NCBI RefSeq assembly: GCF_028885415.1
Contig: NZ_CP118527.1
Span: forward strand, 5,704,001-5,768,000
Source of the DNA: Streptomyces coeruleorubidus
GTDB lineage: Bacteria; Actinomycetota; Actinomycetes; Streptomycetales; Streptomycetaceae
Length of the DNA stretch: 64,000 nt
Direction: 5' to 3'
Below the pieces are notes generated by a model, which searched no databases, had not been told where the DNA came from, and saw nothing but the letters and a program-made list of their open reading frames with translations. Positions 9,485-47,184 of this stretch are shown here, one piece after another. How positions within the stretch are numbered: the stretch's first letter is position 1; each line of letters starts with the position of its first letter. A program made the translations under genes and the position numbers.

Positions 9485-12400
9485 TCACCCCGGGACGACG
9501 ACCGTGCGCAGCTCCCCGTCGCCGAGGTGCAGCATGCCCTTGCCGGGGGCGACCTGGCCGCCGACCATGCTGCGGGACAGGCGGACGCCGACGAGGTCGC
9601 CGCTGGAGGACTCCTGAGGCGAGAGGAGGATGCCGCGGCGGGCCTTCTTCGCGTCGACCTGCCAGCCGGAGAAGCCGCTGCACACGTCCTCCTCGTCACC
9701 GGCGATGACGAGGGCGAGGCCGCGCTCGGCGCCCCGGGAGACCAGCTTCTTCAACTGGCTCTCGGCGTCGCAGTCCTCCAGGATCTCGCCGTCGTCGATG
9801 AGGACCGCGATCGGCTCCTGAAGGGACGCCTGGTCGACGAGCTCCTCGAACTCGTCCTCGTCGATGTCGTCGCCGGTGAAGACCTTCAGGACGCCTTCCG
9901 TGCCGTCGAGTTGGCGCAGCGGCGACTGGCGCGGGGCCGCGACGACCAGGCGCGTGCCCTGGGCCAGGAAGGAGTGGGCGAAGTTCAGCAGGACCGTCGA
10001 GCGGCCCGACTTGGCCGGGCCCGCGACGACGAACGCCGGTACGCCCTGCGCCAGATCGGGGCCGAAGCCGACGATCTCGTCGCCGCCGATGCCGACCAGA
10101 CCCCACAGGCGCGAGCGGGACGCGTCCGGGTCGCGCAGCTCCCAGGCCTCCGGGAAGGAGATCCGGCTGGGCAGGCTGTCGACGCGGAACGGGCGGCGCG
10201 AGCGCGGCACTTCGACGTAGCGGGCGGTGGCCGCCTCACCGATCGCCGCCAGCGCCGCGGCCTGGCCCTGGCCGCTGGTGTCCTCGGCGAGCAGCGCGAA
10301 CTGCGTCTCCGTACCGAACTCGTTGCGGAACGCACGCCCCGGCGGGATCTCCTCCGGCACCTTGCGGACCGGGATGCCGAGCGCCGAGAAGTCGCTGCGG
10401 TCGGCCAGCCGCAGACCGTACTTGTCCTCGGTGAGGGTCGCGATACGGCCGACCAGCAGGGTCCGGTCGCCGGTGAGGACCAGGTGGATGCCGACGCTCG
10501 CGCCCTCGCGCATCATCGTCTGGAGCTCGTCGGTGAGCGAACCGTGGTCGATCTCGCCGAGCGTGGGCACCCAGCCCTCCCAGCGGTCCAGCAGCACGAC
10601 GATGTGCGGCAGCCGCTCGTCCTCGGAGACCGAGGCCCGCTGCTCGCCGATGTCCGCGAAGCCCTTGTCCGACAACAGGTCCTGACGGCGGCCCAGCTCG
10701 CCCTTGAGCCGGTTGACGAGCCGCACGACCCGCTCGGTCTGGTTACGGCCGACGACCGCGCCGCAGTGCGGCAGCCGGGTCAGGGCGTTCAGCGCGCCGT
10801 TGCCGCAGTCGATGCCGTAGAGGTGCACGTCGGCCACGGAGTGGGTGCGGGCGATGGAGCCCGCGAGAGTGCGCAGCACCTGGGAGCGGCCGCTGCGCGG
10901 GGCACCGCCGATCATCAGATGGCCGAAGGAGGAGAAGTCCACGACGACCGGGCGGCGGGACTGGCTGGCGGGCAGGTCCTCGATGCCGTACGGCGCCGGC
11001 GGCAGCTTGCCGGGGCCGCCGGCGAACGCGGGCACCTCGATCTCGTCCAGCAGCAGAGTCTCGTCGAGGGCGGGCAGCCACGGGCTGTGCTGGGGCGGGA
11101 TGCCGAGCGAGCGGTTGGCGTCGCGGATGGTGTCCACGAGGACCTTCAGGTCCGTGATCTCCTCGTCCTCACGGGCCTCGGCCTTCGGCTTGGCAAGCGC
11201 CGCCCGCCCGAGGTCCTCCCAGGTCAGCGGGCCCACCCAGGGCATGAGCACGGCCGGGTCGGCCGCACCGGGCCGGCGACCGCCCACGCGTCCGGACTGG
11301 AAGGGGACCAGGGAGGCGTGCCCGAGCCGGGCGTAGGCGCGGCCCGGGGTGTTCTTGGAGATGTGCCCGGCCTCCGGCGAGTCGATGACGTCGGTCGACT
11401 CGCCGCCGTCCGTCACGCGCAGGGCGATACGGAGGTTGGTGTTGGCGCGGATCTCGGGCGACACGACACCGCTCGGCCGCTGGGTGGCCAGCAGCAGGTG
11501 GATACCGAGGGACCGCCCTCGCTGGGCGATGTTCACGAGCCCCGTCACGAAGTCGGGCAGGTCACGCACCATCGACGCGAACTCGTCGATGACGATGAGC
11601 AGCCGGGGAACCGGCTGGTGCGAAGGATCCCGACGCACGAGATCCTGATAGTCCTCGATGTCCTTGGCGTCGGCGGCGGCCAGGATGTGCTCGCGCCGGT
11701 GCAGCTCGGCACCCAGCGACTCCAGGGCCCGCTCCACCAGGTGGGCGTCGAGGTCGGTCACCATGCCGACGGTGTGCGGCAGATGCACACAGTCCTTGAA
11801 GGCCGCGCCGCCCTTGTAGTCGACGAGCACGAACGTCATGTTCTCGGGCGTGTTCGCCACCGCCAGCGCCGCCACGATGGTCTGGAGCAGCTCCGACTTA
11901 CCCGAACCGGTCGTACCGGCGATGAGACCGTGCGGACCGTCCTTGCGGATGTCGATCCCGAACGGCCCGTCGTACGACTCACCGATGACGGCCAGCGTCG
12001 ACTGCCCGCCCATCCGCCACCGCGCCGTGATCGCGTCGCTCGTCGGCGGCTCCAGCTGGAGCACGTCCAGCAGCCGGCTGGAGCCCGGCAGGGCCGAGTC
12101 CTCGGTCTCGCCGCTGATGTCCCGCAGCGGCGACAGCGACCGGGCGAGCCGCAGACACCAGGCGGGGGAGACGAAGTCGGGCCGTACGTCCTTCAGGCGC
12201 TCCGCACCGGCCTCCTCCACCCGCAGCCGCAACTTCTCGGTGTGGCCGCCCTGTTCGGGCTGCGGGTCGGTGGTGTGCCAGGCCTGGAAGGAAGGGAAGG
12301 CACCCGCGACCTGCTGGGACTGCTGCTGGACCTGCTGGGCCTGCTCGTACTCCTCGGCCTTTGGCTCGGCGACGACGTACGCCTGGCACTCGCCGGGCAG

Positions 12401-14140
12401 GAACCGCTCCTCGGCGTCGAGGCAGAGGGCGAACATGGAGACGGAGGGCCCTTCGCGCAGCAGCCGTACGACGCCGGGGAGGGACCGCAGCCGCCGCGAT
12501 CCGTCCCACACGACGACGATGTCGGGGTCGCTGAAGCTCGAACCGCCCTGCGACTTGTTCTGCTCGGCGGCCTTCTTGCGCGCGTCGAGGATCTGCGTCA
12601 GCTCGCCGATGCGGGCGCCGACGGTCTCGGCGTCGGTCCCGATGAGCACGTTGACGTCCTGCCCGCCGGACGGCCGGGCGTGCGGCAGCCAGCGCACCCA
12701 GTCCCAGGACTCCTGCGCGGCGTTGTCGCTCAGCACGTAGAACTGCACGTCCATCGGGCTGTGCAGCGCCGCGGCCTGCGCGACGGCCCACCGTCCGAGA
12801 GCACGGGCGGAATCCCCGGGCCCGGCCATGCCGATGACGCCGAGGGTGCGCAGGTGCAGCGCGACCGGGGCGTCCTCGATCTTCCAGGTCACCTGGCGAC
12901 GGTGGTCGTCCTGCTCGGGGTCGTCGAGCACGACCTCGGAGGGCAACTGCCCGGTCCCCACCCGCAGGAGGAGATGGTCGCGGTCGGTACGCCGCCGCTC
13001 CCACAGACGGGTACGCGGCCCGGTCCCGAGGGCGAGGACGGTGGCGGGGTCGGGAATGGCATGCCGCCGGTCGTTCCGCTCGGTGACCAGCGCGTCCTGC
13101 GCGTCCTTCTCGATCCGCTCCTTCTGCTCCTCGTACTCCTGCACCTGCTTGGCGTGCGACTTCCGCCCGTGCTTCTTGTCGTTGTAGTAGTTCGCGAAGA
13201 GCAGGAACGGGCTCAGCGCGGCCATGATCAGGTAGTACCAGCGCTGGAAGATCATCACCGACACGACGGCACCGACGAGCGGCGTCAGCGCCATCAGCCA
13301 GGGCAGCGGCCGGGCCTCGTACTCACGCGGCGGCGACGGCAGCCGGAAGTTGGTCTGCCGCTCGGGCGGACGCAGCCGCGGGGGCCGGTTGTAGTCGAGG
13401 CCTATGCCGTCGTCGGACCACTTGAGGGCGGCGTTGGGGGGTGTGTAGCGGGTGAGTTCGAGGAGGGTGTTGCCGATGCCGATCTGAGCACCGAGGGGCC
13501 AGTCGGTGGGGCCGCCCTTCTTCTCGTCCCTCTTGTTGCCCTGGTCCTTCTTCTTGCCGCTCTTCTTCTCGCTTGTCTTCTTCTTCTCGCCCTGGTCCTC
13601 TTTTTCGTCCTCGGCGAGGGACTTGCCGTCGAGGGTGACGTGCTCCTGGTCCGTGTGCACGGCGACCTGGCAGGTGCCGTCGGTGGCGACGGAGAGGGTG
13701 AGGGCCCGGGCGTCGACCTCGGGATCGTCGATACGGACGTACGAGGCGGCCCCGCTGCCGATGTCGTACCGCCCGACGCCGAGACGGTGCACGAACCCGG
13801 CCGCGGGCCCACCCACGACCCGCAGCTCGACGAGCCCGGTGGGCTCACCGGGCAGACACCCGGAAGGATCCTGGAGGCTGACGACGGCGCCGTCGCGCAG
13901 GGGCGATCCGACGACGGTGGCGTTCGGGTCGACGGCGTACCCGTCGACGTACACGAGGGGCGCGTTGTTGGCCGGCACCTGACGGTGCTGTCCCAGCGGG
14001 ATGATCTGCGCGCCGCTGTGCCCGACCTGCTTGGCGAGCTCCTGGGCGATGTCTCCCACGGTGGACTCAGGATCGGCATCGAGCACCACGTCGGCGGTAC
14101 CACCGCCGTAGGGGTCGACGACGGTCAGAGTCAGGCGCAC
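9485..14140 (-). CDS. eccC: Type VII secretion ATPase EccC (FHA-TM-triple FtsK domain)
   Basis: A 1551-residue ESX/T7SS motor. The GTG at 14140 is chosen because GGAGGA lies upstream at the right distance; an upstream in-frame GTG has none. N-terminal ubiquitin-like and FHA-like regions (about 1-175) are interrupted by a Lys/Glu-rich linker (about 180-210). A transmembrane hairpin spans about 278-318, and three FtsK/SpoIIIE ATPase domains follow. ATPase 1 has an intact Walker A, GTTGSGKS (about 741-748), and Walker B IVIDEFASM. ATPases 2 and 3 have GAPRSGRS and GPAKSGRS, with arginine replacing the Walker lysine. The single-chain FHA layout resembles Firmicutes EssC and Streptomyces EccC. No eccB, eccD, eccE or mycP lies in the window. 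Confidence 0.96.
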   Translation of the reverse strand: MRLTLTVVDPYGGGTADVVLDADPESTVGDIAQELAKQVGHSGAQIIPLGQHRQVPANNAPLVYVDGYAVDPNATVVGSPLRDGAVVSLQDPSGCLPGEPTGLVELRVVGGPAAGFVHRLGVGRYDIGSGAASYVRIDDPEVDARALTLSVATDGTCQVAVHTDQEHVTLDGKSLAEDEKEDQGEKKKTSEKKSGKKKDQGNKRDEKKGGPTDWPLGAQIGIGNTLLELTRYTPPNAALKWSDDGIGLDYNRPPRLRPPERQTNFRLPSPPREYEARPLPWLMALTPLVGAVVSVMIFQRWYYLIMAALSPFLLFANYYNDKKHGRKSHAKQVQEYEEQKERIEKDAQDALVTERNDRRHAIPDPATVLALGTGPRTRLWERRRTDRDHLLLRVGTGQLPSEVVLDDPEQDDHRRQVTWKIEDAPVALHLRTLGVIGMAGPGDSARALGRWAVAQAAALHSPMDVQFYVLSDNAAQESWDWVRWLPHARPSGGQDVNVLIGTDAETVGARIGELTQILDARKKAAEQNKSQGGSSFSDPDIVVVWDGSRRLRSLPGVVRLLREGPSVSMFALCLDAEERFLPGECQAYVVAEPKAEEYEQAQQVQQQSQQVAGAFPSFQAWHTTDPQPEQGGHTEKLRLRVEEAGAERLKDVRPDFVSPAWCLRLARSLSPLRDISGETEDSALPGSSRLLDVLQLEPPTSDAITARWRMGGQSTLAVIGESYDGPFGIDIRKDGPHGLIAGTTGSGKSELLQTIVAALAVANTPENMTFVLVDYKGGAAFKDCVHLPHTVGMVTDLDAHLVERALESLGAELHRREHILAAADAKDIEDYQDLVRRDPSHQPVPRLLIVIDEFASMVRDLPDFVTGLVNIAQRGRSLGIHLLLATQRPSGVVSPEIRANTNLRIALRVTDGGESTDVIDSPEAGHISKNTPGRAYARLGHASLVPFQSGRVGGRRPGAADPAVLMPWVGPLTWEDLGRAALAKPKAEAREDEEITDLKVLVDTIRDANRSLGIPPQHSPWLPALDETLLLDEIEVPAFAGGPGKLPPAPYGIEDLPASQSRRPVVVDFSSFGHLMIGGAPRSGRSQVLRTLAGSIARTHSVADVHLYGIDCGNGALNALTRLPHCGAVVGRNQTERVVRLVNRLKGELGRRQDLLSDKGFADIGEQRASVSEDERLPHIVVLLDRWEGWVPTLGEIDHGSLTDELQTMMREGASVGIHLVLTGDRTLLVGRIATLTEDKYGLRLADRSDFSALGIPVRKVPEEIPPGRAFRNEFGTETQFALLAEDTSGQGQAAALAAIGEAATARYVEVPRSRRPFRVDSLPSRISFPEAWELRDPDASRSRLWGLVGIGGDEIVGFGPDLAQGVPAFVVAGPAKSGRSTVLLNFAHSFLAQGTRLVVAAPRQSPLRQLDGTEGVLKVFTGDDIDEDEFEELVDQASLQEPIAVLIDDGEILEDCDAESQLKKLVSRGAERGLALVIAGDEEDVCSGFSGWQVDAKKARRGILLSPQESSSGDLVGVRLSRSMVGGQVAPGKGMLHLGDGELRTVVVPG

Positions 14141-14486
14141 GACTAGTCCTCCCCGTGCCACTGGGCCGGTGTGGCCTTTGTGGTTGCCGTGGCCGCTTCC
14201 GCAACGCGGGCCACAGTCTTAGCGACGATATCCGTTCCAGGTTGGGGCGGGGCAGTGGGGAGGCCTCATGACGTTCCCGATGGCAACGTCGTACACGACT
14301 TCATGACGGCTCGTTCACAAGCCGGGGATGTGGCACCACAGGCCACACCCGTAAGCTGCTGACGCAAAGAGCGGACGATCACACCGGTTGCGACCCGCGA
14401 CCGGCAACTCGACCTGAAGGCCGATGAGTCCGCAAACAGGGAGCCACGGGGGTTGGCCCTGCGGCGTTGTGAAAGGGAGCGGCTTC
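14141..14486. promoter_or_regulatory. Divergent promoter region between eccC and the esx-like gene
   Basis: A 346-base divergent gap that must hold promoters for leftward eccC and rightward esx transcription. No clear -35/-10 pair can be called. Its two ends (14141-14176 and 14348-14364) are nearly repeated together at 20622-20732, showing that this segment was once duplicated. Confidence 0.6.
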
Positions 14487-14786
14487 ATGGCCAAGGACCT
14501 TGACATCACATATCAGGACATGCGGGAAGCTGCCAAGCATGTCGTGAAGGAGAAGGAAAAGCTCCAGGAGAAGCTCGAGGGCCTCCGCAAGTACATCAAC
14601 AACCTCGTGCAGTCCGGCTACGTCACGAAGAGCTCGTCGAAGGCGTTCGACGAGAACTTCGACGAGTTCGTGCAGGGCACGAAGACGACGCTGGACGGTC
14701 TGGATGGCATGGGTGACTACCTGACCATGGCTGCGGACAAGTTCGAGCAGATTGATGAGGAGCTGGCGAAGCAGGCTCGTAAGTAG
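14487..14786 (+). CDS. ESX-like (WXG100 superfamily) small secreted protein
   Basis: A 99-residue protein with the helix-turn-helix heptad pattern and length of the WXG100 family, encoded divergently from eccC. The turn reads SGYVTKSS near residue 43, so the classical Trp-x-Gly is absent. The C-terminus has FEQIDEELAK (from residue 86), which fits the T7SS export motif (Tyr/Phe)-x-x-x-(Asp/Glu). The ATG at 14487 follows GAAAGGGAG. WXG100 proteins usually export as dimers through EccC, and here the gene stands alone, so a homodimer is likely. Four related genes occur at 15693, 25601, 32275 and 54503, all with the same D-x-E-L-A tail. Secretion is inferred from family and position. Confidence 0.82.
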   Translation: MAKDLDITYQDMREAAKHVVKEKEKLQEKLEGLRKYINNLVQSGYVTKSSSKAFDENFDEFVQGTKTTLDGLDGMGDYLTMAADKFEQIDEELAKQARK

Positions 14787-19742: not shown

Positions 19743-20414
19743 TCACTGGCACTTCTCCGCCTTGGCCTCTACGAACACCTTCGATGCCTGCCACATGCCG
19801 TCACCCGTGGGGAACTTGACCATCACGACCTTGAAGTAGTCGAAGTCAGCGATGCTGGGCTTGCTCCTCAGGATTTTCTCAGTCCTGACCTCTTTGCCGT
19901 AGAACTTGCTTGAGTCCACGCAGAACGCGACTTCCACTGAGTTGCCGTTCGGGGCAGACCGCGTGGTGGCTAGGTAGTGGCGCCGGGTGCCGGTGGCCGT
20001 CCAGCCGCCGTCGACCCTGCTATCGATCTGAGTCTTTGCGTAATGCAGCCCATCGCCTGTGGAATAGGCTGTCACGGCCGCGTCGTTGGACGTGCGTTTG
20101 TAGACGCCCCGGTAGATGGCACGGACGAAATTGGCGGCATCGTCCATCGCAGCCGCTTCGTTCCTGTCCTTCGGCTTGTCCCAGTCGAAGACCAGGTTCA
20201 TGTCCTTGGGCAGGGACACGTCGACGCCATCCGGCTTGTCCTCTGCCTGTGCCGCCGACGGTTCCGCAGACTCCTTCGGCGTCTCCGACCCGCGGTCGGC
20301 TCCGGCGCTCTTGTCGTTGCCGCTGGGCTTGTCGTCCCCGCTACCGCAGGCCGTCAACAGCAGTGCCGCCGTCGCCGCAAGCGCGGCAGCAACGGACAAT
20401 GGGCGGCGCTTCAC
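19743..20414 (-). CDS. Small lipoprotein, family A of the lipoprotein/secreted-protein module (orphan copy)
   Basis: A 223-residue lipoprotein. The lipobox LLTAC precedes GSGDD, and a Ser/Glu-rich spacer leads to a mature domain with LPKDMNLVFDWDKPKDRNEAAA, then AFCVDSSKFYGKEV and a final EKCQ. The two mature cysteines probably form a disulfide. The size and pattern are compatible with an NTF2-like fold, which is inference. The GTG start at 20414 is preceded by GGGGAG. It is very close to the proteins at 21518 and 27017, but no secreted partner follows it; instead the fragment at 19676 does. The upstream 147 bases are a repeat shared with those two genes. Confidence 0.85.
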   Translation of the reverse strand: MKRRPLSVAAALAATAALLLTACGSGDDKPSGNDKSAGADRGSETPKESAEPSAAQAEDKPDGVDVSLPKDMNLVFDWDKPKDRNEAAAMDDAANFVRAIYRGVYKRTSNDAAVTAYSTGDGLHYAKTQIDSRVDGGWTATGTRRHYLATTRSAPNGNSVEVAFCVDSSKFYGKEVRTEKILRSKPSIADFDYFKVVMVKFPTGDGMWQASKVFVEAKAEKCQ

Positions 20415-21517: not shown

Positions 21518-22188
21518 TCACCGGCACTTCTCCGCCGCCGTCTCGACGAACACCTTGGATGCCTGCCACAGGTCCGTACTTGTGGGGAACTTGACCATCA
21601 CGATCTCGAAGTAGTCGAAGTCCTCGAGGCTGGGCTTGGTCTTGAGCACCTTCTTGGTCTTGATTTCCTTGCCGTAGAACTTCCCTGAGTCCGCGCAGAA
21701 CGCGACCTCTACCGACTTGCCGTTCGTAGTGGACCGCGTGGTGGCGTCGTAGTGGCGCAGCGTTCCGCTGGCAGTCCAGCCGCCGTCGATCCAGGCATCG
21801 ATCTGAGTATTCGCATAGCGCAGCCCATCGCCGGTGGCGTAGGTGGTCACAGCCGCGTCCATGGTCGTGCGCTTGTCGACGCCCCGGTAGATGGCACGGA
21901 GATAGCTCGCGGCGTCGTCCATCGCCGCCGCTTCGTTCTTGTCCTTCGGCTTGTCCCAGTCGAAGACCAGGTTCATGTCCTTGGGCAGGGACAGGTCGAC
22001 GCCGTCAGGCTTGTTCTCTGCCGGTGTCCCCGATTGTTCCGCGGACTCCTTCGGGGACTCCACTACCTGGCCGGCGCCTGCGGTTTTGTCGTTGTCGCTG
22101 GACTTGTCGTCCCCGCTACCGCAGGCCGTCAACCCAGTGCCGCCGTCACCGCCAGCGCGGCAGCAATGGGCAAAGCGCGGCGCTTCAC
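21518..22188 (-). pseudogene. Family-A lipoprotein with frameshifted signal peptide
   Basis: The expected GTG start at 22188, ribosome site and first 19 codons (signal peptide) are present, but one base is missing at 22131-22135: the plus strand reads AACCCAGTG where the paralogs have AACAGCAGTG. This ends the signal-peptide frame at a TGA. The mature part (from TACGSGDDKS to the final EKCR) stays open in the next frame and keeps all family features, including AFCADSGKFYGKEI. Translation from the internal TTG at 22132 would give a protein without a usable signal. It is either a recent pseudogene or a sequencing error; the otherwise clean sequence favours a recent event. Confidence 0.8.
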
Positions 22189-24248: not shown

Positions 24249-25604
24249 TTACCAGTGGGTGTCGGGGGCGGGCTTCAACGTGTTGTCCTTCCAGTCCGAG
24301 TACGCCGCGTTGTACGGCTTCTCGCCGCTTCCGAACTTCTCGTTGGTCAAGCTTGTCAGGTCGCTCTTCCCCAGCGCCTTGTCCATGACATCCATCCCCA
24401 TGCCGGTCCAGGCGATGCCGAGGCCCACTTGGTAGGCCTTGTACGCCTTGTCCGCGGCGGCCCCAGCGGCCTCCGGGAAGACAGCCTTGTTCGCCTGCAG
24501 CATCTTCGCCATGCCGGCCATCTCCTTGTCGCCGAGGTGCACCAGCGTCGACAACGGGCTGACCCTCAGCGGACCTTTGGCGACCAGGCCGACGTTCTGT
24601 GAGATGGACTTGCGCATCGCGTTACGAGCCGCTCCGAGGGCCTGCTGCCCCGGTCCCGGCGGCACTTTGGTCATCAACCGCCCGGTGTCGTCCATGATGC
24701 TCTTGACACCCCTGAGCCCTTTGCTCAGGCCGGCGGTCCGGGCCGCCTGAGCGGCGCCCACGGTGGCCTTGGCGCCGCTGGCGAGCTTCGCGGCGGCCCC
24801 GAGACCGCCCACGACGAGCAGCCCACCCACGACGTCGAAGATGACATCCGTCCAGGTGGCGTCGCCGGATGCCACCAGCAGGAGTCTGAGCAGGATGGTG
24901 AGGCCCGCGATGCCTAGTACGAGCATGTTCAAGCCGGGGATGGCGAGCGCCAGAAAGCCCGCGAACGTCGCGACCCAGCCGAGAACATCGATGAAAGCCT
25001 TGATCCCGTTCGCATGGTCATGGACCCAGCCCTTGACGTCGTCCCACCACGAGTCCTCGATCACGTCTTCGATCTCGGCGCGGATCTTCCCCGCGTAGTG
25101 GTTGGCGCGAGTGCTCCGTTCGCCGGTGAGAGTGTGCAGACGGGTCCGGTAAGGCTGCAGGGGATCGTCGGCGGGACTGGTGCCGCTGGTGGACGGGTGC
25201 GGGACGTCCTTGTCCTCCGAGGCGGCCTTCTTGGCCTTGTCGGCCTCGACCTCCTCCTGCTTCTCCTTGGTCTCGCGCAGGAGTTTGTCGGCGTCGCTCT
25301 GGAAGTCCTCCAGCTCGTTCGACCACTTGGTCAGATGGCCGTGCACACGCTCGTACCGGCTGGCCACCTCCCGCATGTGCTTCTCCAGCGTGCCGGACTC
25401 CTCGCGCAGGCGTTTGACGTACTTGCCCTTGAGGGTGTCCTCGTCGCTGATCGCCTTGAGGTTCTTGGCCTGGTCCCGGAGTTTCTTGGCGACCGAGACC
25501 ATGTGCTTGACCTCGGCGCGGATCTCCTCCGGATCACCGGGCACGGGGTCGGAGTCGCACAGCGGCTGCCAGTCGACCGGACGGCGCTTGGATGTAGGTG
25601 TCAC
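24249..25604 (-). CDS. Toxin-less T7SS delivery-type protein (operon B)
   Basis: A 451-residue protein. Residues 19-25 are DPVPGDP, followed by a helical, highly charged region to about 150, a Ser/Pro-rich hinge, more helix with SWWDDVKGWVHDHANG (also seen as SWWEEVGDWFTDNWGS in the Rhs toxin), a hydrophobic segment (about 212-250), and a glycine/alanine-rich region. The C-terminal 120 residues are unique and lack recognisable catalytic motifs. The start overlaps the ESX-like gene's stop by four bases. The shared Trp-rich motif and hydrophobic domain make it a close architectural relative of the Rhs N-terminus at 55003. Export is inferred. Confidence 0.82.
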   Translation of the reverse strand: MTPTSKRRPVDWQPLCDSDPVPGDPEEIRAEVKHMVSVAKKLRDQAKNLKAISDEDTLKGKYVKRLREESGTLEKHMREVASRYERVHGHLTKWSNELEDFQSDADKLLRETKEKQEEVEADKAKKAASEDKDVPHPSTSGTSPADDPLQPYRTRLHTLTGERSTRANHYAGKIRAEIEDVIEDSWWDDVKGWVHDHANGIKAFIDVLGWVATFAGFLALAIPGLNMLVLGIAGLTILLRLLLVASGDATWTDVIFDVVGGLLVVGGLGAAAKLASGAKATVGAAQAARTAGLSKGLRGVKSIMDDTGRLMTKVPPGPGQQALGAARNAMRKSISQNVGLVAKGPLRVSPLSTLVHLGDKEMAGMAKMLQANKAVFPEAAGAAADKAYKAYQVGLGIAWTGMGMDVMDKALGKSDLTSLTNEKFGSGEKPYNAAYSDWKDNTLKPAPDTHW

Positions 25605-25900
25605 TTTTTCTGCTTCTTCTTGCCCTGCTTGGCCAACTGCTCGTCCAGGTCCTCGAACGCCTTCTTGGTTCCGGCCACCATCTCGCCCACCGACTTGAGT
25701 GACTCGACGAGCCGGGTGCGGTAGTCGTCCCAGTTGTCGACGAAGTCCTCCATGACATCGGCGATGGCACCGGAGCCCCAGTGCTTGTCCATGTCGTCGC
25801 GACGGTTCTCGATGTCCTCGAAGGTCTTCTTGAGCTGCCCGAGCTTGCGTTCGCAGTCCGCGAGGAACTCGTAGTCGACCGTCAGGTCCGAATCGCCCAT
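25601..25900 (-). CDS. ESX-like helical-hairpin protein (operon B)
   Basis: A 99-residue WXG100-like protein with a tryptophan-glycine turn (HWGSG at about 40-44), the F-x-x-x-W pattern (DFVDNW) and the tail FEDLDEQLAKQ, which fits Phe-x-x-x-Asp. It ends in a Lys-rich run. The ATG at 25900 is followed by a compact helical hairpin. The stop overlaps the delivery-type gene's start, so the two products are made together, as in operon A. It probably forms a secretion complex with the helical N-terminus of that protein. Confidence 0.82.
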   Translation of the reverse strand: MGDSDLTVDYEFLADCERKLGQLKKTFEDIENRRDDMDKHWGSGAIADVMEDFVDNWDDYRTRLVESLKSVGEMVAGTKKAFEDLDEQLAKQGKKKQKK

Positions 25901-25940: not shown

Positions 25941-27026
25941 TCACCGGTTGACGGCCTGGATCTCCTGGACGGTCACCGCCTGGTCGTTGCCGAACGTCCC
26001 GTCGGGCAGGTCGCCGCCCGCGCCGCCGGTGCCGGTCCAGGCGATGTCCCAAGTGATGGTGGCCTGAAGCTTGTAGGTGCCGTCGCCGGAGGAGCGGAGG
26101 TACTTGATCCCGCACGGCGGTGTCTCGTCGGCCTTGCCCTGGGCGTAGGGCTCGCCGATGGAGTTGTCGGCGTTGATGGTGCACTCGCCGGAGGCCGGGT
26201 AGGTCTCGGCGTCCTCGGTGCCCGGCTCCAGCTTGAGGGACACCGGCTTGGCGGTGGTGGTGGCCTGGATGTTGAAGCCGGGGACGTTGATGGCCGCCGT
26301 GGCCTGGACCTCGTCGAAGACGGCCTTGTCGAGCCAGGCCCAGGTTGGCAGGTTCACCTTGGTGTTGGCCTCGGGAGCGAGGGTGACCTTGGTGTCGGGG
26401 AGCTCCATGTGCTGGTAGGCGAGAGCGGCGAGTATCTCAGGCTTGATGGCCTCTTCGTACTGGGGCGGTGGCGCCTCGCCGTTCTCCACCCAGAAGGGGA
26501 GGTCCGTGCACGACGTCCGCTTGAGATAGTCCGGCTCGTTGGGGTTCTCGACGCCGGCCCAGAACATTCCCTTGCCGTCGTTCTCGACGTTGTAGTCCTT
26601 GTAGCCGGGACTTCCGGTCCAGCCGAACCCGTCTTCGTAGTGGCGCTTCGTCTCACCGATCGCGGCACCCGCGGTCCCGCCCATGCCGGGTGCGTTCAGC
26701 TGGCTATCGATGTGCTTGGACATCTCCTTCTTGAAGTCCTTGGCGCCGAGGTAGGGGGCGTACCAGCAGGGAGGTGGTGTCCAGTTGACGTCCGAGGACG
26801 TCACGTTTCCGGTACCGCCGTCCTTGGCGACGGATCCGGAGTACTGGATGCGGGCAGCGGCGTAAATGCCTTTGCCGTCGCCGCCGCCCTGCTGCTCCGC
26901 GTTGGCTCCCTTGCCGGAACCCACCGGCTTTGCGGCGTAGGCGGGTTCCGTGAGGACGAGGGTGCTGAGGGCCAGAGTCAGTGCTGCGGTACCGAGGAGT
27001 ACGCGCCGTGATCCGTTCACTGGCAT
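25941..27026 (-). CDS. Secreted four-cysteine protein, partner of the lipoprotein at 27017
   Basis: A 361-residue exported protein. The signal peptide (RRVLLGTAALTLALSTLVL) ends near AYA-AK at about residue 32. The mature protein has the family features: CWYAPYLGAKDF, a KDYN/MFWAGVENPN block, SCTDLPFWVENGE, TKVNLPTWAWLD, LEPGTEDAETYPASGEC, PPCGIKYLRSSG and GGDLPDGTF ahead of VQEIQAVNR at the end. The four family cysteines (CWY, TSC, GEC, PCG) suggest two disulfides. The ATG overlaps the lipoprotein's stop by 10 bases. Homologues lie at 34673, 52868, 60819 and 63357, with a remnant at 32656. No enzymatic motif is visible; a surface-binding role with the lipoprotein is inferred. Confidence 0.82.
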   Translation of the reverse strand: MPVNGSRRVLLGTAALTLALSTLVLTEPAYAAKPVGSGKGANAEQQGGGDGKGIYAAARIQYSGSVAKDGGTGNVTSSDVNWTPPPCWYAPYLGAKDFKKEMSKHIDSQLNAPGMGGTAGAAIGETKRHYEDGFGWTGSPGYKDYNVENDGKGMFWAGVENPNEPDYLKRTSCTDLPFWVENGEAPPPQYEEAIKPEILAALAYQHMELPDTKVTLAPEANTKVNLPTWAWLDKAVFDEVQATAAINVPGFNIQATTTAKPVSLKLEPGTEDAETYPASGECTINADNSIGEPYAQGKADETPPCGIKYLRSSGDGTYKLQATITWDIAWTGTGGAGGDLPDGTFGNDQAVTVQEIQAVNR

Positions 27027-27688
27027 TTCGTCGCCTTCGTCTCGACGAACACCTTGGATGCCTGCCACAGGTCTGTACCCGTTGGGAACCTGACCATGAT
27101 GATCTTGTAATAGTCGAAGTCCTCGAGGCTGGGCTTGGTCTTGAGGATCTTCTCTGTCTTGATTTCCTTGCCGTAGAACTTCCCTGCGTCCGCACAGAAC
27201 GCCACCTCCACCGACTTGCCGTTGGCAGAGGACCGCGTGGTGGCGTCGTAGTGGCGCAGCGTCCCTGTGGCGGTCCAGCCGCCCTTGATCCATTCGTTGA
27301 TCTGTACCTGCGCGTAGTGCAGCCCGTCGCCGGTGGCGTACGCGGTCACCGCCGCGTCCTTGGTCGTCCGCTTGTCGACGCCCCGATAGATGGCACGGAA
27401 GAAGTTCGCGGCATCATCCATCGCAGCCGCTTCGTTCTTGTCCTTCGGCTTGTCCCAGGCGAAGACCAGATTCATGTCCTTGGGGAGGGACACGTCCACG
27501 CCGTCCGGATTGTCCTCTGCCGGTGCTCCCGAGGGTGATGCCGACTCCTTCGGCGCCTTCGCTCCCTGGTCGGCGCCGGCGATCTTGTCGTTGTCGCTGG
27601 ACTTGTCGTCCCCGCTACCGCAGGCCGTCAACAGCAGTGCTGCCGTCGCCACCAGTGCGGCAGCAACGGGCAATGGGCGGCGCTTCAC
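27017..27688 (-). CDS. Family-A lipoprotein paired with a secreted protein (operon B head)
   Basis: A 223-residue lipoprotein with lipobox LLTAC, a Ser/Ala/Pro spacer and the mature motif LPKDMNLVFAWDKPKDKNEA. The sequence AFCADAGKFYGKEIKTEK and a terminal KCQ carry the two mature cysteines. The start GTG at 27688 sits behind GGGGAG. It is nearly the same as the orphan at 19743 and the frameshifted copy at 21518. It overlaps the start of the secreted gene and heads an operon that continues with the ESX-like and delivery-type genes. That order links the module to T7SS. The mature fold looks NTF2-like, which is inference. Confidence 0.86.
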   Translation of the reverse strand: MKRRPLPVAAALVATAALLLTACGSGDDKSSDNDKIAGADQGAKAPKESASPSGAPAEDNPDGVDVSLPKDMNLVFAWDKPKDKNEAAAMDDAANFFRAIYRGVDKRTTKDAAVTAYATGDGLHYAQVQINEWIKGGWTATGTLRHYDATTRSSANGKSVEVAFCADAGKFYGKEIKTEKILKTKPSLEDFDYYKIIMVRFPTGTDLWQASKVFVETKATKCQ

Positions 27689-31037: not shown

Positions 31038-32273
31038 TCAATCACCGGACAGTGCCTGGCCGATGTGTGCGCCAACCTTAGGTGCGATCTTGAAACCTCC
31101 ATCGATCGCCCTCCCCAGGCCGCTGAGGGGATCCATGTCGCCCTTGAACAACGTGTTGATTCCTCTCGTGCCCAGCCACTGGCCCTGTTCATAACCGGCA
31201 CTCACAAGACCGCCCATACGTGACATCATGCCGCTGCTTGCATGCGAGACCTCGTAAGCATGTTCGGACATACCTCCGATCTTTATCAAGCCAGCTTTTC
31301 CGAACCCCTGTGTGAGATCTTCCGAAGCCTTTCCGAAGGACAGCAGAACCCGTGACGGGCCGATGTCCTTGTACTGGAATCCCTTTCCGAGCAGCTTCGA
31401 TGTGGCCTTGGCGGCGCCTTCGGCCGCGTCCGCTGTCTTGCCGACGACCTTGACGCCCTTGCCGAACATTCCGATGCCCGGCATCAGGCCCAGTGCGTCC
31501 AGCCCGAGCGTGGCCCAACTCACGTCCGCGCCGGACCCCTTGGCGATGCCATGGGTTGCCAGGGTGAGCCCGCCGCCGATGAGCGCGGCCGTACCGAAGA
31601 TGGCCGCGAGCGGCGGGAACGGGAGCGTGACGATGGCCAGCATGCCCAGCACCGCGGTGATGTCGCCGAGCACGTCACCGATCGCCTTGATCAGGTCGGC
31701 GTGCTCCTTGAGCCAGTCGCCGGTGGCGTCCCAGGCGTCCGCGATGCCCTGGCCCAGCTTGTCCCAGAAGCCAGGTTCGTCGGGGGCGATGTCGGCGGCC
31801 TTGTCCAGCTCCTTGCTGATCTTTGCCGCGGCCTGCTTGTAGCGTTCCTCGAGGTCGTGCAGCTTGCCGAGAAGGCCGGTCACGTCTCCGGAGGCCTTGC
31901 CGTACTCCGGGGTGCCTTCCTTGGCCTCGGCTCTGGCGTCGAGTTTCTCTCCGGCTGCCTTTTCCAGCCGGTCCGCCTCGTCCTGGAAGTCCTGGAGGTC
32001 GTTGGCCCAGCGGTGCAGCGCCCGTGATGCCTTGTCGAAGGACTCGTGGCTCTTGCGGATGAGCGGGGTGACGTCCTGTCCTATGTACTCGGTGAAGGCG
32101 AGCGCGGTCTTGCCCTTCCAGGCACCGCACTCGATTCGCTCCAGCTCGCGTACCGCTGTGCCCAGTTCGCCGGCCAGCTTGCCCAGCCGTTTGGCGAGTT
32201 CCCGGGTGTCCTCCACGCTGCCCGGAGTGGGGTCCCGGCCTATGTGCGGAAACGGGGGCCGCCGCCCAGTCAC
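31038..32273 (-). CDS. Toxin-less T7SS delivery-type protein (operon C)
   Basis: A 411-residue protein. The N-terminal motif DPTPGSVEDT (residues 14-23) opens a helical, highly charged region (24-170) followed by FWDKLGQGIADAWDATGDW, a hydrophobic domain (about 200-245) and the sequence TLGLDALGLMPGIGMFGKG, closely matching LGADALGVFPGLGALKG of operon A and FAALDCIPGMKG of the Rhs toxin. The last about 120 residues have no recognisable catalytic motif. It starts one base after the ESX-like gene's stop. It is the third delivery-type protein without a toxin tip in this island. Confidence 0.8.
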   Translation of the reverse strand: MTGRRPPFPHIGRDPTPGSVEDTRELAKRLGKLAGELGTAVRELERIECGAWKGKTALAFTEYIGQDVTPLIRKSHESFDKASRALHRWANDLQDFQDEADRLEKAAGEKLDARAEAKEGTPEYGKASGDVTGLLGKLHDLEERYKQAAAKISKELDKAADIAPDEPGFWDKLGQGIADAWDATGDWLKEHADLIKAIGDVLGDITAVLGMLAIVTLPFPPLAAIFGTAALIGGGLTLATHGIAKGSGADVSWATLGLDALGLMPGIGMFGKGVKVVGKTADAAEGAAKATSKLLGKGFQYKDIGPSRVLLSFGKASEDLTQGFGKAGLIKIGGMSEHAYEVSHASSGMMSRMGGLVSAGYEQGQWLGTRGINTLFKGDMDPLSGLGRAIDGGFKIAPKVGAHIGQALSGD

Positions 32274-32274: not shown

Positions 32275-32574
32275 TCACTTGCCCTTCTTCTTGGCCTTGA
32301 GAGATTCGGCCAGCTCCAGATCGAGCCCGTCGAACGTCTGGCCGATCTTGTTGATCATCTTCACCGCGCCGTGGGTGTGCTTGCCGAGCTGCTTGATGCC
32401 GTAGCCCCAGTCGTCGGCGAAGTCCTGTACGTCTTCGATGAGTTGGCTTTCGCCGACGGCAGATGCGTCAGTGCCTCGAAGGCTGCGGCGGGCGTCCTCC
32501 ATGCGGTCGCTCATGGAGGAGAAGGTCTTCTTCAAGTGCTCGAATACGGTGTCTTCGAGGCGCAGATCACTCAT
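32275..32574 (-). CDS. ESX-like helical-hairpin protein (operon C)
   Basis: A 99-residue helical protein with the family pattern F-x-x-x-W (DFADDW, about 52-57) and the tail FDGLDLELAES, fitting Phe-x-x-x-Asp, then a Lys-rich end (KAKKKGK). The classical Trp-x-Gly turn is replaced by GTDASAVGES. It precedes the delivery-type gene by one base and follows a decayed secreted-protein gene, so the full order once was secreted protein, ESX-like, delivery-type, as in operon B. Confidence 0.78.
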   Translation of the reverse strand: MSDLRLEDTVFEHLKKTFSSMSDRMEDARRSLRGTDASAVGESQLIEDVQDFADDWGYGIKQLGKHTHGAVKMINKIGQTFDGLDLELAESLKAKKKGK

Positions 32575-32655: not shown

Positions 32656-33110
32656 TCAGCGGTTGACGGCTTGGATCTCCTGGACGGCGATGTCTTGGTC
32701 GTTACCGAAGGTGCCGTCGGGCAGGTCTCCGCCAGCACCGCCAGAACCGGCCCAGGTGATGTCCCAGGTGACGGTGGCCTGGAGCTTGAAGGTTCCGTCC
32801 CCTGAGGAACGAAGGTATCGGATGCCGCACGGAGGCTGCCGGTCGGCCTTGGCTCGTTCGTAGGGTTCGCCGATGGAGCCGTCGTCATTGATCGCGCACT
32901 CGCCGGACGCTGGGTAGGTCTCGGCGTCGGGTGTGCCGGGTTCGAGCTTGAGTGAGACCGGGGCGGCGGTGGTCTGGATGTTGGAGCCGCCGGCTCACTT
33001 TGGCGGTCGGCAACTGGATGCGGTTGTAGTGGGGTTCGGCAAGAATCTGCGGAGTTACCGCGTTCTGGACGGGCGGGGCGTCACCTTTTCCACCAGTGTC
33101 GATTCCCTGA
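32656..33110 (-). pseudogene. Decayed secreted four-cysteine protein gene
   Basis: The last 85 codons or so read as the family C-terminus: VSLKLEPGTPDAETYPASGEC, QPPCGIRYLRSSGDGTF and VQEIQAVNR before the stop at 32656. Upstream only short matches remain: AVTPQILAEPHYNRIQLP (about 33010-33065) for the AYAYD region, and then TAKVS. The STVNLPTW block and the N-terminal half, with the signal peptide and CWY motif, are gone. The gene lies exactly where a secreted-protein gene is expected in operon C, before the ESX-like gene. No lipoprotein partner remains. Confidence 0.8.
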
Positions 33111-34028: not shown

Positions 34029-34688
34029 ATGCTGACCACGCGACGGAGGGCGGCCGTTGCCTCCCTCCTTGCTGTTCTCACGCTGTCCATGACCGGTTGC
34101 AGCAGCGACTCCGACGACGGATCGGGGGAGGACAAGATCGCGGGGGCCGATACAGGGAAGGCCAGCACCTCCACTCCGTCGCCCTCTGCGCCCGCTGAGA
34201 AGAACGCGCCGAGCTTTGACTTCCCCCCGGACATCAAGGTGTCGGTGGATCGGAAGTCGTCAGGTGACCCGACCAAGGACGCCATCCTGCGGGACACGGC
34301 GTACGCGGCCCAGGCCCGCGTCGAGGCTTTCGCCAAGAGCGACAGCCGGACGGCCAACATGAATCGCTATTTCGCAGCCAACGCCCTTTCGTTCTGGGGC
34401 AGCAGGGTCGAGACCTTCAAGAAGGACGGGCTGACCGTGACGGGCGACTACCGCTACTTCGACTTCGAGGTTACTGACGTCGCGGACGGCAAGGCGGCGG
34501 TTCGCTACTGCGAGGACCAGAGCAAGGCGTACAACAAGAAGATCAAGACGAACAAGGTGCAACGCACCCAGCCGAGCGACAAGAGCTTCGTCTTGTACAC
34601 GGCCCAGACGGCGCGGGATTCGGCGGGTGACTGGCAGGTGACGCAGCAGAGTTGGGAAAAGGGGGACCCCGCATGCGTGCAGCGGTAG
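34029..34688 (+). CDS. Lipoprotein of module pair 2
   Basis: A 219-residue lipoprotein. It has a basic head (LTTRRRA), a hydrophobic stretch and the lipobox SMTGC, a Ser/Thr/Pro spacer, and a mature domain with FPPDIKVSVDRKSSGDPTKDA, YCEDQSKAYNKKIKTNK and a C-terminal ACVQR. The positions of the two mature cysteines and the aromatic residues match the family-A lipoproteins and the protein at 52221, although overall identity is low. The ATG at 34029 is in a weak ribosome-site context. It overlaps the secreted gene by 16 bases. Confidence 0.82.
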   Translation: MLTTRRRAAVASLLAVLTLSMTGCSSDSDDGSGEDKIAGADTGKASTSTPSPSAPAEKNAPSFDFPPDIKVSVDRKSSGDPTKDAILRDTAYAAQARVEAFAKSDSRTANMNRYFAANALSFWGSRVETFKKDGLTVTGDYRYFDFEVTDVADGKAAVRYCEDQSKAYNKKIKTNKVQRTQPSDKSFVLYTAQTARDSAGDWQVTQQSWEKGDPACVQR

Positions 34689-35746
34689 GCGTGTGCAAAT
34701 CACGTCCGGCTGTTTGGACAGCAGCCGCAGTGGGCCTTGTTGTGGCGCTGGGCACGGGATGCCCGGCGTACGCGGACGAGTCCACAGGTGGTGACCAGAC
34801 GACCACTCAACCCGACACTGGCTCCGGTCAGCCCGACACCGACTCCGGCGCCGAATCCGGCAGTGGCTCCATCGGCGCCCACATTCGAATCAACCAGAGC
34901 GCCCCCGCCTCCAGCCGTTCCACCGCGTCCGCCACCTCTTCAGACGCCAGCTGGGAACCTCCGGTGTGCTGGTACGAGCCCATGTACACGCCGGAGGAGT
35001 ACGAGAAGTTCATCAAGGGCGCGTATGGCGGCGCTCCAGGGGGAAGCCCGGCTGAGGATTACGCGAAGAAGCGGGAGAAGGAGAAGTACCACAAGGGGGA
35101 CGAGGGCCTGTGGTGGCAGGTGCAGTTCCGCGATGACAACTACGACAAGGCCTGCCCCGTCACCACGGACAACTGGGAGATCTGGGTTCCTCCGGCCGAC
35201 CCGCAGCCGGACCCCAACAAGGTGACTCCTGAGATTCTCTCCGAACTGGCCTTCAACTCGACCAAGTTGCCTACCCCGCCAGTGGAGTTGAAACCGCGCG
35301 CCGACCGGCTGCTCGTGAACCTCGGTACGCGGGTGGCGTTCAAGGGCGATCTCGACCGCGTGTGGACGACCGCCAGCATCAACTACAAGGGCGTTCAGCT
35401 GGCCGCGACCACCGTCGCCACTCCCGTTGCGCTCAAGGTCGACGCCGGTACCGCCGACGCCGATCCACAGAGCTGCACGTACGACCTGGTCAAGGGCAAG
35501 GCCGGTTACACAGCCGACAGCGGGGCCGGCGCCGGTTGCAACGTCACGTATCTCCGTTCGTCAGGCAGCGGCACCTACCCCTTCAAGGCGTCGATCACCT
35601 GGAAGGTGACGTGGACCGATTCGGCCGACCCGGACGGGCCGCCGCAGCAGCCGGGTCTGCCCGACGGGTTGTCCACGTTCGAGCAGGACGTGACCGTCAA
35701 GGAGGCCCAGGCCGTGAACCGAGCAAGTGGCATAAGCCATGGCTGA
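34673..35746 (+). CDS. Secreted four-cysteine protein of module pair 2
   Basis: A 357-residue exported protein. The ATG at 34673 follows AAAAGGGGGAC and lies inside the lipoprotein gene. The signal peptide ends near AYA-DE at about residue 35. Motifs present are PPVCWYEPMYTPEEYEKF, LWWQVQFRDDNYDKACP, the TPEILSEL segment, VNLGTRVAFKGDLDRVWT, SCTYDLVKG, GCNVTYLRSSGSGTY and VKEAQAVNR near the end. The four family cysteines are kept although this copy is the most divergent: the usual NLPTW is replaced by NLGTR. The stop is overlapped by the next gene. Role inferred as extracellular partner of the lipoprotein. Confidence 0.8.
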   Translation: MRAAVGVCKSRPAVWTAAAVGLVVALGTGCPAYADESTGGDQTTTQPDTGSGQPDTDSGAESGSGSIGAHIRINQSAPASSRSTASATSSDASWEPPVCWYEPMYTPEEYEKFIKGAYGGAPGGSPAEDYAKKREKEKYHKGDEGLWWQVQFRDDNYDKACPVTTDNWEIWVPPADPQPDPNKVTPEILSELAFNSTKLPTPPVELKPRADRLLVNLGTRVAFKGDLDRVWTTASINYKGVQLAATTVATPVALKVDAGTADADPQSCTYDLVKGKAGYTADSGAGAGCNVTYLRSSGSGTYPFKASITWKVTWTDSADPDGPPQQPGLPDGLSTFEQDVTVKEAQAVNRASGISHG

Positions 35747-45538: not shown

Positions 45539-46264
45539 GTGAAGATCCAAGAGCGTACGGGGGCGGGCGCCGGTCGTTCCGCCGCTCCGGCTCAGCCGTC
45601 GGTCGGTGACCGGCTTCCCACACCACCTCGCGAGCGCAAACCGGCACTGGCCGCGCTCGCGGTGCTGCTCATCCTGGTGGGTGCGCTGGGGGCGACGATG
45701 CTGGTGCTCCAGGCCGGTGACCGGATCGAGGTCGTCAAGGTGACGAACGAGGTCCAGGCCGGGGAGTCCCTCAAGGACAGCGACGTGACCTCCGTCATGG
45801 TCGCCGCGGACGAAAGCATCCACTACGTCGAGTGGTCGCAGCTGAAGACCATCCAGACGTACAAGGCCAAGTCCACGATCTACCCGGGGACTCTCGCGGT
45901 CGGTGAGATGTTCGCCAAGAAGGCGAGCCTGCCCGCAGGCAAGGCCGCCGTCGGCCTCGCCCTCAAGGAGGGCCAGTACCCGTCCGACATCAAGGCCGGT
46001 GACGTCGTCTCCGCCTACCGTGTCAGCACCAGCGGCTCCCCCTCGAACAGCACCGACGACAGCACCAGCTCGAGCGGCACCTCGTCCTCCGGCGGCGCCA
46101 TCGTCGACAACGCGCGCGTGAACACCGTAGAGGACGACAGCGACGCCACCGTGAGCACCGGCAACCTCTCGCTCACCGTCCTCGTCGACGAGGCCGACGC
46201 GGCCGCGCTCGCCTCCGCGGCGGCCGCGAACCAAGTCGCCATCGTGCACGTCCCCGGCAACTAG
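45539..46264 (+). CDS. cpaB: Flp pilus assembly CpaB/RcpC-type SAF-domain protein
   Basis: A 241-residue protein starting with GTG at 45539. One transmembrane helix (about 38-60) is followed by a SAF-like domain with VTNEVQAGESLKDSDVT and then a VGLALKEGQYPSDIKAGDVV segment. A long Ser/Thr-rich loop (about 160-185) and a C-terminal strand-rich segment close the protein. CpaB/RcpC proteins line the secretin or the base of Flp pili; in Gram-positive hosts there is no secretin and the protein may guide the pilus through the wall. It opens the pilus operon; the next gene starts 18 bases downstream. Confidence 0.85.
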   Translation: MKIQERTGAGAGRSAAPAQPSVGDRLPTPPRERKPALAALAVLLILVGALGATMLVLQAGDRIEVVKVTNEVQAGESLKDSDVTSVMVAADESIHYVEWSQLKTIQTYKAKSTIYPGTLAVGEMFAKKASLPAGKAAVGLALKEGQYPSDIKAGDVVSAYRVSTSGSPSNSTDDSTSSSGTSSSGGAIVDNARVNTVEDDSDATVSTGNLSLTVLVDEADAAALASAAAANQVAIVHVPGN

Positions 46265-46281: not shown

Positions 46282-47184
46282 ATGGCGCTCATCGCTCTCG
46301 CCGCCGACAAGGGTTCCCCCGGCGTCACCACCGCGGCCGTCGCACTCTCGGCGGTCTGGCCGCGGCGCGTCCTGCTCGCCGAGACGGACCCGGCGGGCGG
46401 TGACCTCGTCTACCGCAGTGCCGCCGCGCACGGCGGACCGCTCAACCCCAACACCGGCATGCTGTCCATCGCCGCGACCGCGCGCCGCGGACTCGTGCCG
46501 GACCAGCTCTGGGACCACGTACAGCCGTTGAGCGGGGGACTGGAGGTGCTCGTCGGGCTCGGCATCGCCGAGCAGGCCGCCGGGCTCGCGGGGCTGTGGC
46601 CCACCCTCGGGCACGCCTTCGCCTCCCTCGCCGACTCCCCGAACGCCGCCGCCGACGTCATCGCCGACTGCGGACGCATCAGCGGGGACACCCCTGCCGT
46701 CGAGCTGTTCCCGCACGCCTCGCTCGTACTGCTGCTCTCCCGCACCGAGCCGGAGGCCATCGCCCGGGTCCGCGACCGCGCCGCCGCCCTGGCCGGCAAG
46801 CTGCACGGCGGCCCGCGCGGTGCCGCGAGCCTCGCCAACCCGGTGATCGGCGTCGTCCTGATCGCCGACACGGGCACCGCGGGCAAGCTCGCCTCGCAGG
46901 TCAACGACATGCTCGTGCACGCCCAGACCGGCGCCCGCGTCGTCGGCACCATCGCCGACGACCCGGCCGGCGCCGACCAGCTGGCCGGCCGCAAGCGCGG
47001 ACGTCTCGACAAGTCGCTGCTGATCCGCTCGGCCCGCAAGGTCGCCGCCGACCTCTACCAGCAGTACGGCGCCGCCTGGGCCGCCTCCGCCCAGGCGAAC
47101 CAGGCCCACCAGGTTCAGCAGGCCCACCACGTCCAGCACAACCACCCGGGCCAGATGCAGGGCCACGCGGGGGCAGGCACATGA
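46282..47184 (+). CDS. tadZ: TadZ/CpaE-type MinD-like ATPase
   Basis: A 300-residue cytoplasmic protein. The N-terminal ADKGSPGVTTAAVALS is a deviant Walker A motif, followed by VLLAETDPAGGDL (switch region) and IAEQAAGLAGL. The MinD/ParA-type fold is clear although conserved lysines are partly changed. TadZ proteins position the pilus machinery at the cell pole or on septa. The C-terminal Gln/His-rich tail (HQVQQAHHVQ) is unusual. The stop overlaps the cpaF start by four bases, so both are made together. Confidence 0.86.
   Translation: MALIALAADKGSPGVTTAAVALSAVWPRRVLLAETDPAGGDLVYRSAAAHGGPLNPNTGMLSIAATARRGLVPDQLWDHVQPLSGGLEVLVGLGIAEQAAGLAGLWPTLGHAFASLADSPNAAADVIADCGRISGDTPAVELFPHASLVLLLSRTEPEAIARVRDRAAALAGKLHGGPRGAASLANPVIGVVLIADTGTAGKLASQVNDMLVHAQTGARVVGTIADDPAGADQLAGRKRGRLDKSLLIRSARKVAADLYQQYGAAWAASAQANQAHQVQQAHHVQHNHPGQMQGHAGAGT

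Follow-up and report, generated by a model that had tools for sequence, protein, structure and literature searches.

The stretch of DNA analyzed here (64,000 nucleotides of the Streptomyces coeruleorubidus chromosome, contig NZ_CP118527.1, hereafter the window) is part of a 9.41-Mb single-contig genome and carries repeated copies of a pair of overlapping genes, one encoding a predicted lipoprotein (LP) and the other a secreted protein (SP) with four cysteines. We find that the LP/SP pairing is a real two-gene unit, whose partners are inherited together and whose cysteines are conserved, and that the pair belongs to a family of Tad (type IVc) pilus loci found across the Actinomycetota. Linkage to the type VII secretion system (T7SS), with which an earlier note on this DNA had associated the pair, was seen only in a clade within Streptomyces. 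It is likely that the unit helps a surface pilus to cross or grip the cell wall, and toxin-secretion cassettes have probably borrowed it later from the pilus setting.

The window was mapped from the G+C content at third codon positions together with Pfam scans, and the start codons of the LP and SP genes were picked by eye. A profile search bore out the earlier note's count of four intact overlapping pairs accompanied by orphan and decayed members, the orphans being three LPs. All entries below are profile matches.

27017..27688, minus strand: LP of pair B, NTF2-like lipoprotein (fold from the model of the paralog at 52221)
25941..27026, minus strand: SP of pair B, secreted four-cysteine protein
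34029..34688, plus strand: LP of the second pair
34673..35746, plus strand: SP of the second pair, a diverged copy
52221..52880, plus strand: LP of the third pair, adjoining the Tad cluster, modeled
52868..53920, plus strand: SP of the third pair, modeled
61868..62551, minus strand: LP of the fourth pair; its frame is open to 62683 and the start codon is uncertain
60819..61871, minus strand: SP of the fourth pair
60131..60778, minus strand: orphan LP directly downstream of the fourth pair
19743..20414, minus strand: orphan LP, 78% identity to the LP at 27017
21518..22132, minus strand: orphan LP, 81% identity to the LP at 27017
32659..32991, minus strand: SP remnant, profile positions 187-288 only
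63360..64000, minus strand: frame-broken SP, extending past the window end

The two genes overlap by 10 nt in pair B and by 16, 13 and 4 nt in the second, third and fourth pairs. The seven LPs matched the LP profile with E-values of 4e-103 to 3.8e-91 and the four SPs matched the SP profile with E-values of 1.3e-181 to 4e-112, both profiles being built from the same proteins; independently of these profiles, public data contain 2155 homologous clusters for SP and 1081 for LP. The best named SP relative, from Streptomyces venetus, is 89% identical, and among the matches listed the named LP and SP relatives are almost all from Streptomyces. Most are recorded as hypothetical proteins and a few as lipoprotein or secreted protein; the label "enoyl reductase" on several SP relatives is most likely an annotation mistake that has spread between records. 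The frame-broken SP consists of two minus-strand pieces, one at 63360-63593 and the other from 63535 past the window end; an LP match (L190) also lies beyond that end.

The evidence for a unit comes from the window together with 78 named Streptomyces and Kitasatospora loci, a panel that was picked by similarity to SP profile A1 and is hence biased. An LP, defined by a stop codon 300-1500 nt ahead of the SP stop, was found just upstream in 101 of the 104 SP frames, and 14 of the 114 LPs are orphans. The LP and SP distance matrices correlate with r 0.849 over 99 pairs, whereas swapping partners within the 17 multi-pair loci gave a mean r of 0.417 and a maximum of 0.707, with none of 2000 swaps reaching the observed value. 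The co-evolution of the two lineages that the earlier note had proposed to examine is thus seen as a positive correlation; since linked inheritance alone can produce it, it argues for a stable unit and not for contact. These numbers also bear on the idea that the two proteins serve immunity or self-protection in a polymorphic-toxin island, amplified and decaying as immunity genes do. The orphan LPs and broken SPs amid toxin-like genes, as well as LP copies in tandem, would fit such a role, but the near-constant retention of LP by SP, the co-variation of the two as a unit and the relatives in Tad operons without T7SS genes all speak against it, and we consider it highly improbable. PADLOC found no match for LP or SP, which says little because PADLOC covers phage defense.

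The earlier note had described shared motif blocks in SP, which are strict in three of the SPs and have drifted in the copy at 34673, and an LP motif, which is indeed conserved but in the form [YF]C.D..K and not YC.D.SK.Y. Cysteines 86, 165 and 293 of SP are conserved in 98, 100 and 99% of 90 relatives, in which the third SP cysteine is split over two alignment columns. In 63 Streptomyces-type LPs, cysteines 24, 162 and 217 are conserved in 98, 100 and 100%, the first being a lipobox cysteine after a signal peptide, from which LP is predicted to be a bacterial lipoprotein. An extracytoplasmic location of both proteins fits with the lipobox and the signal peptides, and the LP cysteine pair and the four SP cysteines are likely to form disulfides. 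Neither protein gave a match above cut-off in Pfam or NCBIfam (the SP relatives were scanned too), and the NCBIfam matches of the LPs were far under the cut-offs and mostly over the signal region. No match to RcpA, RcpB, RcpC, TadD, TadE or TadG was seen for LP or SP in the library scans, which remote homology could escape. The N-termini are of the Sec or lipobox type with no helical hairpin of the WXG, PE or LXG kind, and the models are mostly strand (SP) or NTF2 (LP), which is not what a T7SS substrate would look like.

The confident model of the LP at 52221 has the alpha+beta cone of the NTF2-like superfamily, and NTF2 is accordingly the predicted fold. The C-terminal domain of SP is probably PKD/Ig-like, as judged from a model of moderate quality; Foldseek gave no match at E≤1e-3, and the statement is based on a second structure search and on weak matches of the PKD and PKD_4 profiles to SP relatives. 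The rows returned by that search include intimin and S-layer proteins, and such listings do not exclude families absent from them. PKD/Ig-like folds are frequent in adhesins. We therefore also considered that the pair could be a contact or adhesion module, in which SP would be a surface adhesin or receptor held by LP and exchanged between pilus and toxin loci since each has to recognize a target. The 1-9 SP matches per positive Streptomyces genome would be in line with this, as would the control of prey recognition by Tad minor-pilin tips described for Myxococcus in the cited part of PMC12075869. However, SP has a Sec-type signal and shows no pilin motif or wall anchor by eye (no dedicated search was made), and the LP model is similar to NTF2 domains with roles in assemblies of the envelope, so that we find this explanation rather unlikely.

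Beyond the window, profile searches were confined to the Actinomycetota and covered 396 genomes. A Streptomyces-only SP profile hit 28 of these, matching the C-terminal half of secreted proteins of about 300 residues; in other actinobacteria such proteins align to SP over their full length with the four cysteines matching. Inspection of 23 such loci by eye showed, in 19 of them, a gene ahead of SP in a different reading frame that overlaps the SP gene or comes very close to it and encodes a cysteine near the C-terminus, the exceptions being L039 and L032, which are broken by contig ends, and L044 and L056, which show no LP-like gene upstream. Sixteen proteins encoded upstream in this way, of which two come from Streptomyces genomes, matched the Streptomyces LP profile with a probability of 99.4 and an E-value of 7e-21 over 200 columns; L178 was left out of this comparison. 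An automatic finder placed an LP-like frame before 35 of 49 SPs; its frames at L052 and L172 are spurious, and better candidates were found for both. Among its negative loci, an LP is visible on inspection at L040, L042, L046, L047, L053, L054 and L057, and L168, L169 and L170 do show an upstream partner, without cysteines. By eye, these three partners look NTF2-like, with a transmembrane helix perhaps serving as the anchor in place of the lipobox. At L047 (8857-9897), L036, L172 and L178, the gene before SP seems, by eye, to encode an NTF2-like repeat twice in tandem, with separate cysteines in each copy.

With distant relatives added to the profile, SP was found in 58 of the 396 genomes. PF00437 matched in all 58 among the matches listed, and for that reason tadE was used as the Tad marker. 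TadE was present at E≤1e-3 in all 39 SP genomes examined, and at E≤1e-5 in 54 of 58 SP genomes vs. 204 of the 338 others (Fisher 1.2e-7, ignoring genome kinship). The distance test used 70 of 93 SP matches, comprising most of those with better scores, from 39 of the 58 genomes. Of 50 SPs outside Streptomyces, at least 18 have tadE within 10 kb and on their own strand, where random placement predicts at least 0.81; both values are lower bounds that apply to the tadE matches listed. Within the same matches, the remaining 32 have no tadE at this distance, and several of their loci have no Tad gene by its own profile within about 10 kb on either side.

Two gene orders recur in the Tad operons; among the loci used, L167-L179 were chosen mostly for a nearby tadE, so that the counts are descriptive and not a rate. 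In the first, SP is followed by CpaB, CpaE, CpaF, TadB and TadE, 13 of 14 loci have an LP-like gene ahead of SP, and the CpaB stop comes 666-1001 nt after the SP stop in 13 of 14, which agrees with the next gene being CpaB-sized. In the second, the genes from CpaB to TadE precede SP, and an NTF2-like-looking gene stands before SP in all five loci; three of these partners (L168-L170) have neither the lipobox nor the cysteine pair, and two have tandem repeats. SAF, a domain of CpaB/RcpC proteins, scored above cut-off in two of the CpaB-like neighbors of SP. Although not every copy lies in an operon with CpaF/TadA, TadB and TadE, it is because of the tadE linkage and the recurring order LP-SP-CpaB-CpaE-CpaF-TadB-TadE that we assign the pair to Tad pilus loci. 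The window has its own Tad cluster, which did not enter the reasoning of the earlier note and ends directly beside the 52221/52868 pair:

45539..46264, plus strand: CpaB/RcpC-like, first gene of the cluster (profile hits; SAF E 0.026 and RcpC 0.29, both below cut-off)
46282..47184, plus strand: presumably CpaE/TadZ-like (position and profile hits in Tad operons; without Pfam or NCBIfam support)
46596..48488, plus strand: CpaF/TadA ATPase (PF00437 E 9.2e-29), open frame with the true start downstream
48535..49485, plus strand: TadB-like (profile hits; named by position, no NCBIfam match)
49262..50215, plus strand: TadC-like (profile hits; named by position, no NCBIfam match)
50790..51248, plus strand: TadE (PF07811 E 2e-13)
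51302..51430, plus strand: second TadE match (E 1.4e-9)

Divergent from the CpaB-like gene are two large uncharacterized proteins (42178-44259 and 40932-42188) with no confident family in library scans, homologs of which occur in 24 and 15 of the 78 loci. Two further TadE/T2SSE loci are present on the same chromosome, at L187 (near 6275177) and L197 (near 5432786), and 22 kb from the former is L188, where an LP-SP pair is accompanied by a T7SS cassette of its own.

Within Streptomyces, SP occurs in two settings. The SP family was found in 15 of 37 Streptomyces genomes, and after 7 of 45 rows had been dropped as short fragments, 38 SP matches were kept, some of them partial. Nineteen of these have a gene with the T7SS-signal domain PF21725 within 10 kb (0.31 expected) and 18 have tadE within that distance (0.28 expected), eight being close to both and nine to neither; 10 are immediately followed by a T7SS-signal gene that has the same orientation and lies no more than 2 kb away. 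Among the 78 named loci, Tad genes are present in 55, EccC in 49, both in 35 (within about 21 kb) and either system in 76, and a gene of the WXG, EspC or T7SS-signal type directly follows 53 of 99 SPs. Furthermore, 19-kb stretches without EccC still contain the pair with a WXG/EspC-effector set, downstream of SP in L182, L188 and L196 and upstream of LP in L194. Such a pattern could mean that LP-SP is a true T7SS accessory, either a surface-exposed part of the ESX machinery or a substrate-specific exit factor, with the Tad linkage being secondary. Yet no WXG100 match at E≤1e-4 was obtained in 41 of the 58 SP genomes (17 have one), the Tad-operon loci show no T7SS gene by its own profiles, and in seven Streptomyces genomes the plain Tad-operon form stands 5.0-5.7 kb ahead of tadE on a contig that lacks PF21725. 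Family-wide, this largely amounts to what the earlier note had named as refuting its hypothesis, and the link supposed there is supported within Streptomyces and largely contradicted for the family as a whole.

A tree of 55 SP proteins points in the same direction, although its bootstrap values are unsettled, its root is unknown and the T7SS and Tad labels of its rows were assigned by us. The eight SPs labeled as T7SS-cassette members fall within one 13-row clade (97/96), which is nested inside a 23-row Streptomyces clade (100/100). The Streptomyces Tad-operon SP from L177 is placed outside the latter and groups with L048 (100/99), and the window SP at 52868, which adjoins TadE and is also 1.1 kb before an Rhs gene, belongs to the 23-row clade but not to the 13-row clade. 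Because of this topology and the wider distribution, we infer that the use of LP-SP in T7SS cassettes is derived, and we rejected the T7SS as the ancestral setting, given the single cassette clade and the few SP genomes with WXG100. The accessory explanation is already strained when applied to the whole family, and we judge it to be unlikely, if deserving of serious consideration.

In the window, the four pairs, three orphan LPs and decayed SPs are scattered through an island that comprises, from left to right, an EccC-like ATPase, a WXG100 gene, T7SS-signal-type genes, the Tad cluster and a T7SS-signal/Rhs protein. The left flank has a G+C content of 0.70-0.73, which drops to 0.63-0.68 over most of the island apart from the Tad cluster. 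As the earlier note stated, ESX-like and delivery-type genes directly follow pair B and the SP remnant of a decayed operon. The T7SS-related genes are:

9485..14161, minus strand: EccC-like FtsK/SpoIIIE ATPase with an FHA-like region (PF01580 E 2.7e-60; Yop-YscD_cpl 1.7e-4, below cut-off)
14424..14786, plus strand: WXG100 protein adjoining EccC (PF06013 E 7.1e-16)
25601..25900, minus strand: small WXG100-like protein immediately following pair B (PF06013 E 1.8e-4, below cut-off)
24249..25604, minus strand: T7SS-signal-type effector-like protein after pair B (PF21725 barely over cut-off)
32275..32574, minus strand: small ESX-like protein after the SP remnant 32659-32991
31038..32273, minus strand: T7SS-signal-type protein (PF21725 E 8.8e-5, below cut-off)
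55003..59571, plus strand: T7SS-signal and Rhs polymorphic-toxin-like protein downstream of the third pair (PF21725 1.8e-8, RHS repeats 1.7e-87, DUF6531 4.7e-21)

The PF21725 match in 24249..25604 did not appear in the Pfam scan and came from another search (25068-25544, 27.5 vs. a cut-off of 27 bits). The label "ESX-like" for 32275..32574 is based on size and position because Pfam gave no WXG100 match. Homologs of 25601..25900 and 32275..32574 are the next mapped gene after 26 and 14, respectively, of the 99 SPs in the 78 loci. Small genes at 23207-23839, 29304-30113 and 22522-23163 recur near T7SS-signal genes in 40, 40 and 24 of the 78 loci; without a confident family, they are possible immunity or chaperone partners. 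PADLOC gave weak coiled-coil hits to 24249-25604 and hits of the FtsK/HerA type to EccC, both of which were set aside as generic. About 30 kb separate the EccC/WXG100 cluster (9485-14786) from the Tad cluster (45539-51430), and toxin-like cassettes are found in this interval and around both clusters. Besides its weak FHA-like match, the EccC-like protein has an N-terminal stretch that looks ubiquitin-like by eye. According to the cited part of PMC11217815, FHA is absent from the EccC of T7SSa, and the Streptomyces machine may thus represent a further T7SS variant.

Our preferred explanation, to which we give an even chance of being correct, is that LP-SP is an envelope unit with relatives in Tad operons that has also likely been recruited to T7SS cassettes in Streptomyces, and that it acts in a wall-side pilus complex. 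LP would be held by its lipid on the outer face of the membrane and bind SP, and the two could form, together with the CpaB/RcpC-like neighbor, a complex on the wall side through which the monoderm Tad pilus is anchored or exits, standing in for the secretin and pilotin of diderms. A T7SS cassette with its own LP-SP copy might let the toxin exit at the same surface site or via the Tad pilus itself. A bolder version, which we regard as quite unlikely, is that the pairs are interchangeable couplers of the Tad pilus and T7SS toxins, by which Streptomyces would deliver T7SS and Rhs toxins on pilus contact: the tad-operon copy would form the exit port of the pilus through the wall, and the copy in each toxin cassette would plug into the same port or pilus. 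If true, this would explain why tad and T7SS loci are found side by side and why LP-SP has multiplied and diversified between them.

The significance of the preferred explanation lies in the question of how a type IVc pilus traverses the thick wall of a bacterium that has no outer membrane. The cited part of one review reports monoderm type IVc systems to be without the secretin, RcpB, RcpC and TadD, and the late-stage parts of diderms to be missing in monoderms (PMC6916266). SAF-containing CpaB-like genes suggest that actinobacteria beyond the few studied models may keep an RcpC-like part and add LP-SP, and the pair, which directly precedes the CpaB/RcpC-like gene in the tad operons of actinobacteria, is a concrete candidate for wall passage. 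Its presence in T7SS toxin cassettes also provides a testable molecular link for the co-location of Tad and T7SS genes, which Garrett et al., in the cited part of their paper, noted in Bacillota without explaining it (PMC11217815).

We found no description of the LP/SP pair in the literature, a search that left supplementary files, preprints and subscription papers outside its coverage. Among known systems, polymorphic toxin loci with Rhs and T7SS-signal domains are represented by the neighboring effector at 55003-59571; for LP and SP themselves, the library scans gave no match to a family of toxins or immunity proteins. NTF2-like envelope domains, such as the intermembrane domains of ARC6/PARC6 and those of VirB8/TrwG/TraM, show 5-17% identity to LP in the listed rows, but LP is a predicted lipoprotein with a conserved cysteine pair and the likeness appears to be at the level of the fold. 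The Kil system of Myxococcus, in which a Tad-like pilus works with a toxin system and several interchangeable contact modules, offers another parallel (PMC12075869, PMC8460266); its tips are minor pilins, whereas LP and SP have Sec and lipobox signals and no pilin motif by eye (again without a dedicated search). In T7SSg and T7SSh, as in the window, T7SS genes are located beside a Tad locus, and the authors leave the link open in the cited part of their study (PMC11217815); those systems are from Bacillota, whereas here we have Streptomyces, an FHA-like EccC and one protein module common to both loci.

A further likeness is to the Tad/Flp (type IVc) pilus, which has the same operon context of CpaB, CpaE, CpaF, TadB and TadE, and for which the predicted envelope location of LP-SP would be appropriate. 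TadD-type pilotins are TPR lipoproteins. The diderm parts are a TPR lipoprotein and a secretin, whereas LP and SP have predicted NTF2 and PKD-like folds. In diderm Tad systems, TadD and RcpA provide the role analog of a lipoprotein with an extracytoplasmic partner (PMC10499894, PMC12307814), and the RcpC of Pseudomonas assembles as a dodecamer into an alignment complex in contact with the secretin (PMC12307814). As a type, the Tad system is already known; its two-protein part, and the sharing of this part between Tad and T7SS loci, appear to be new.
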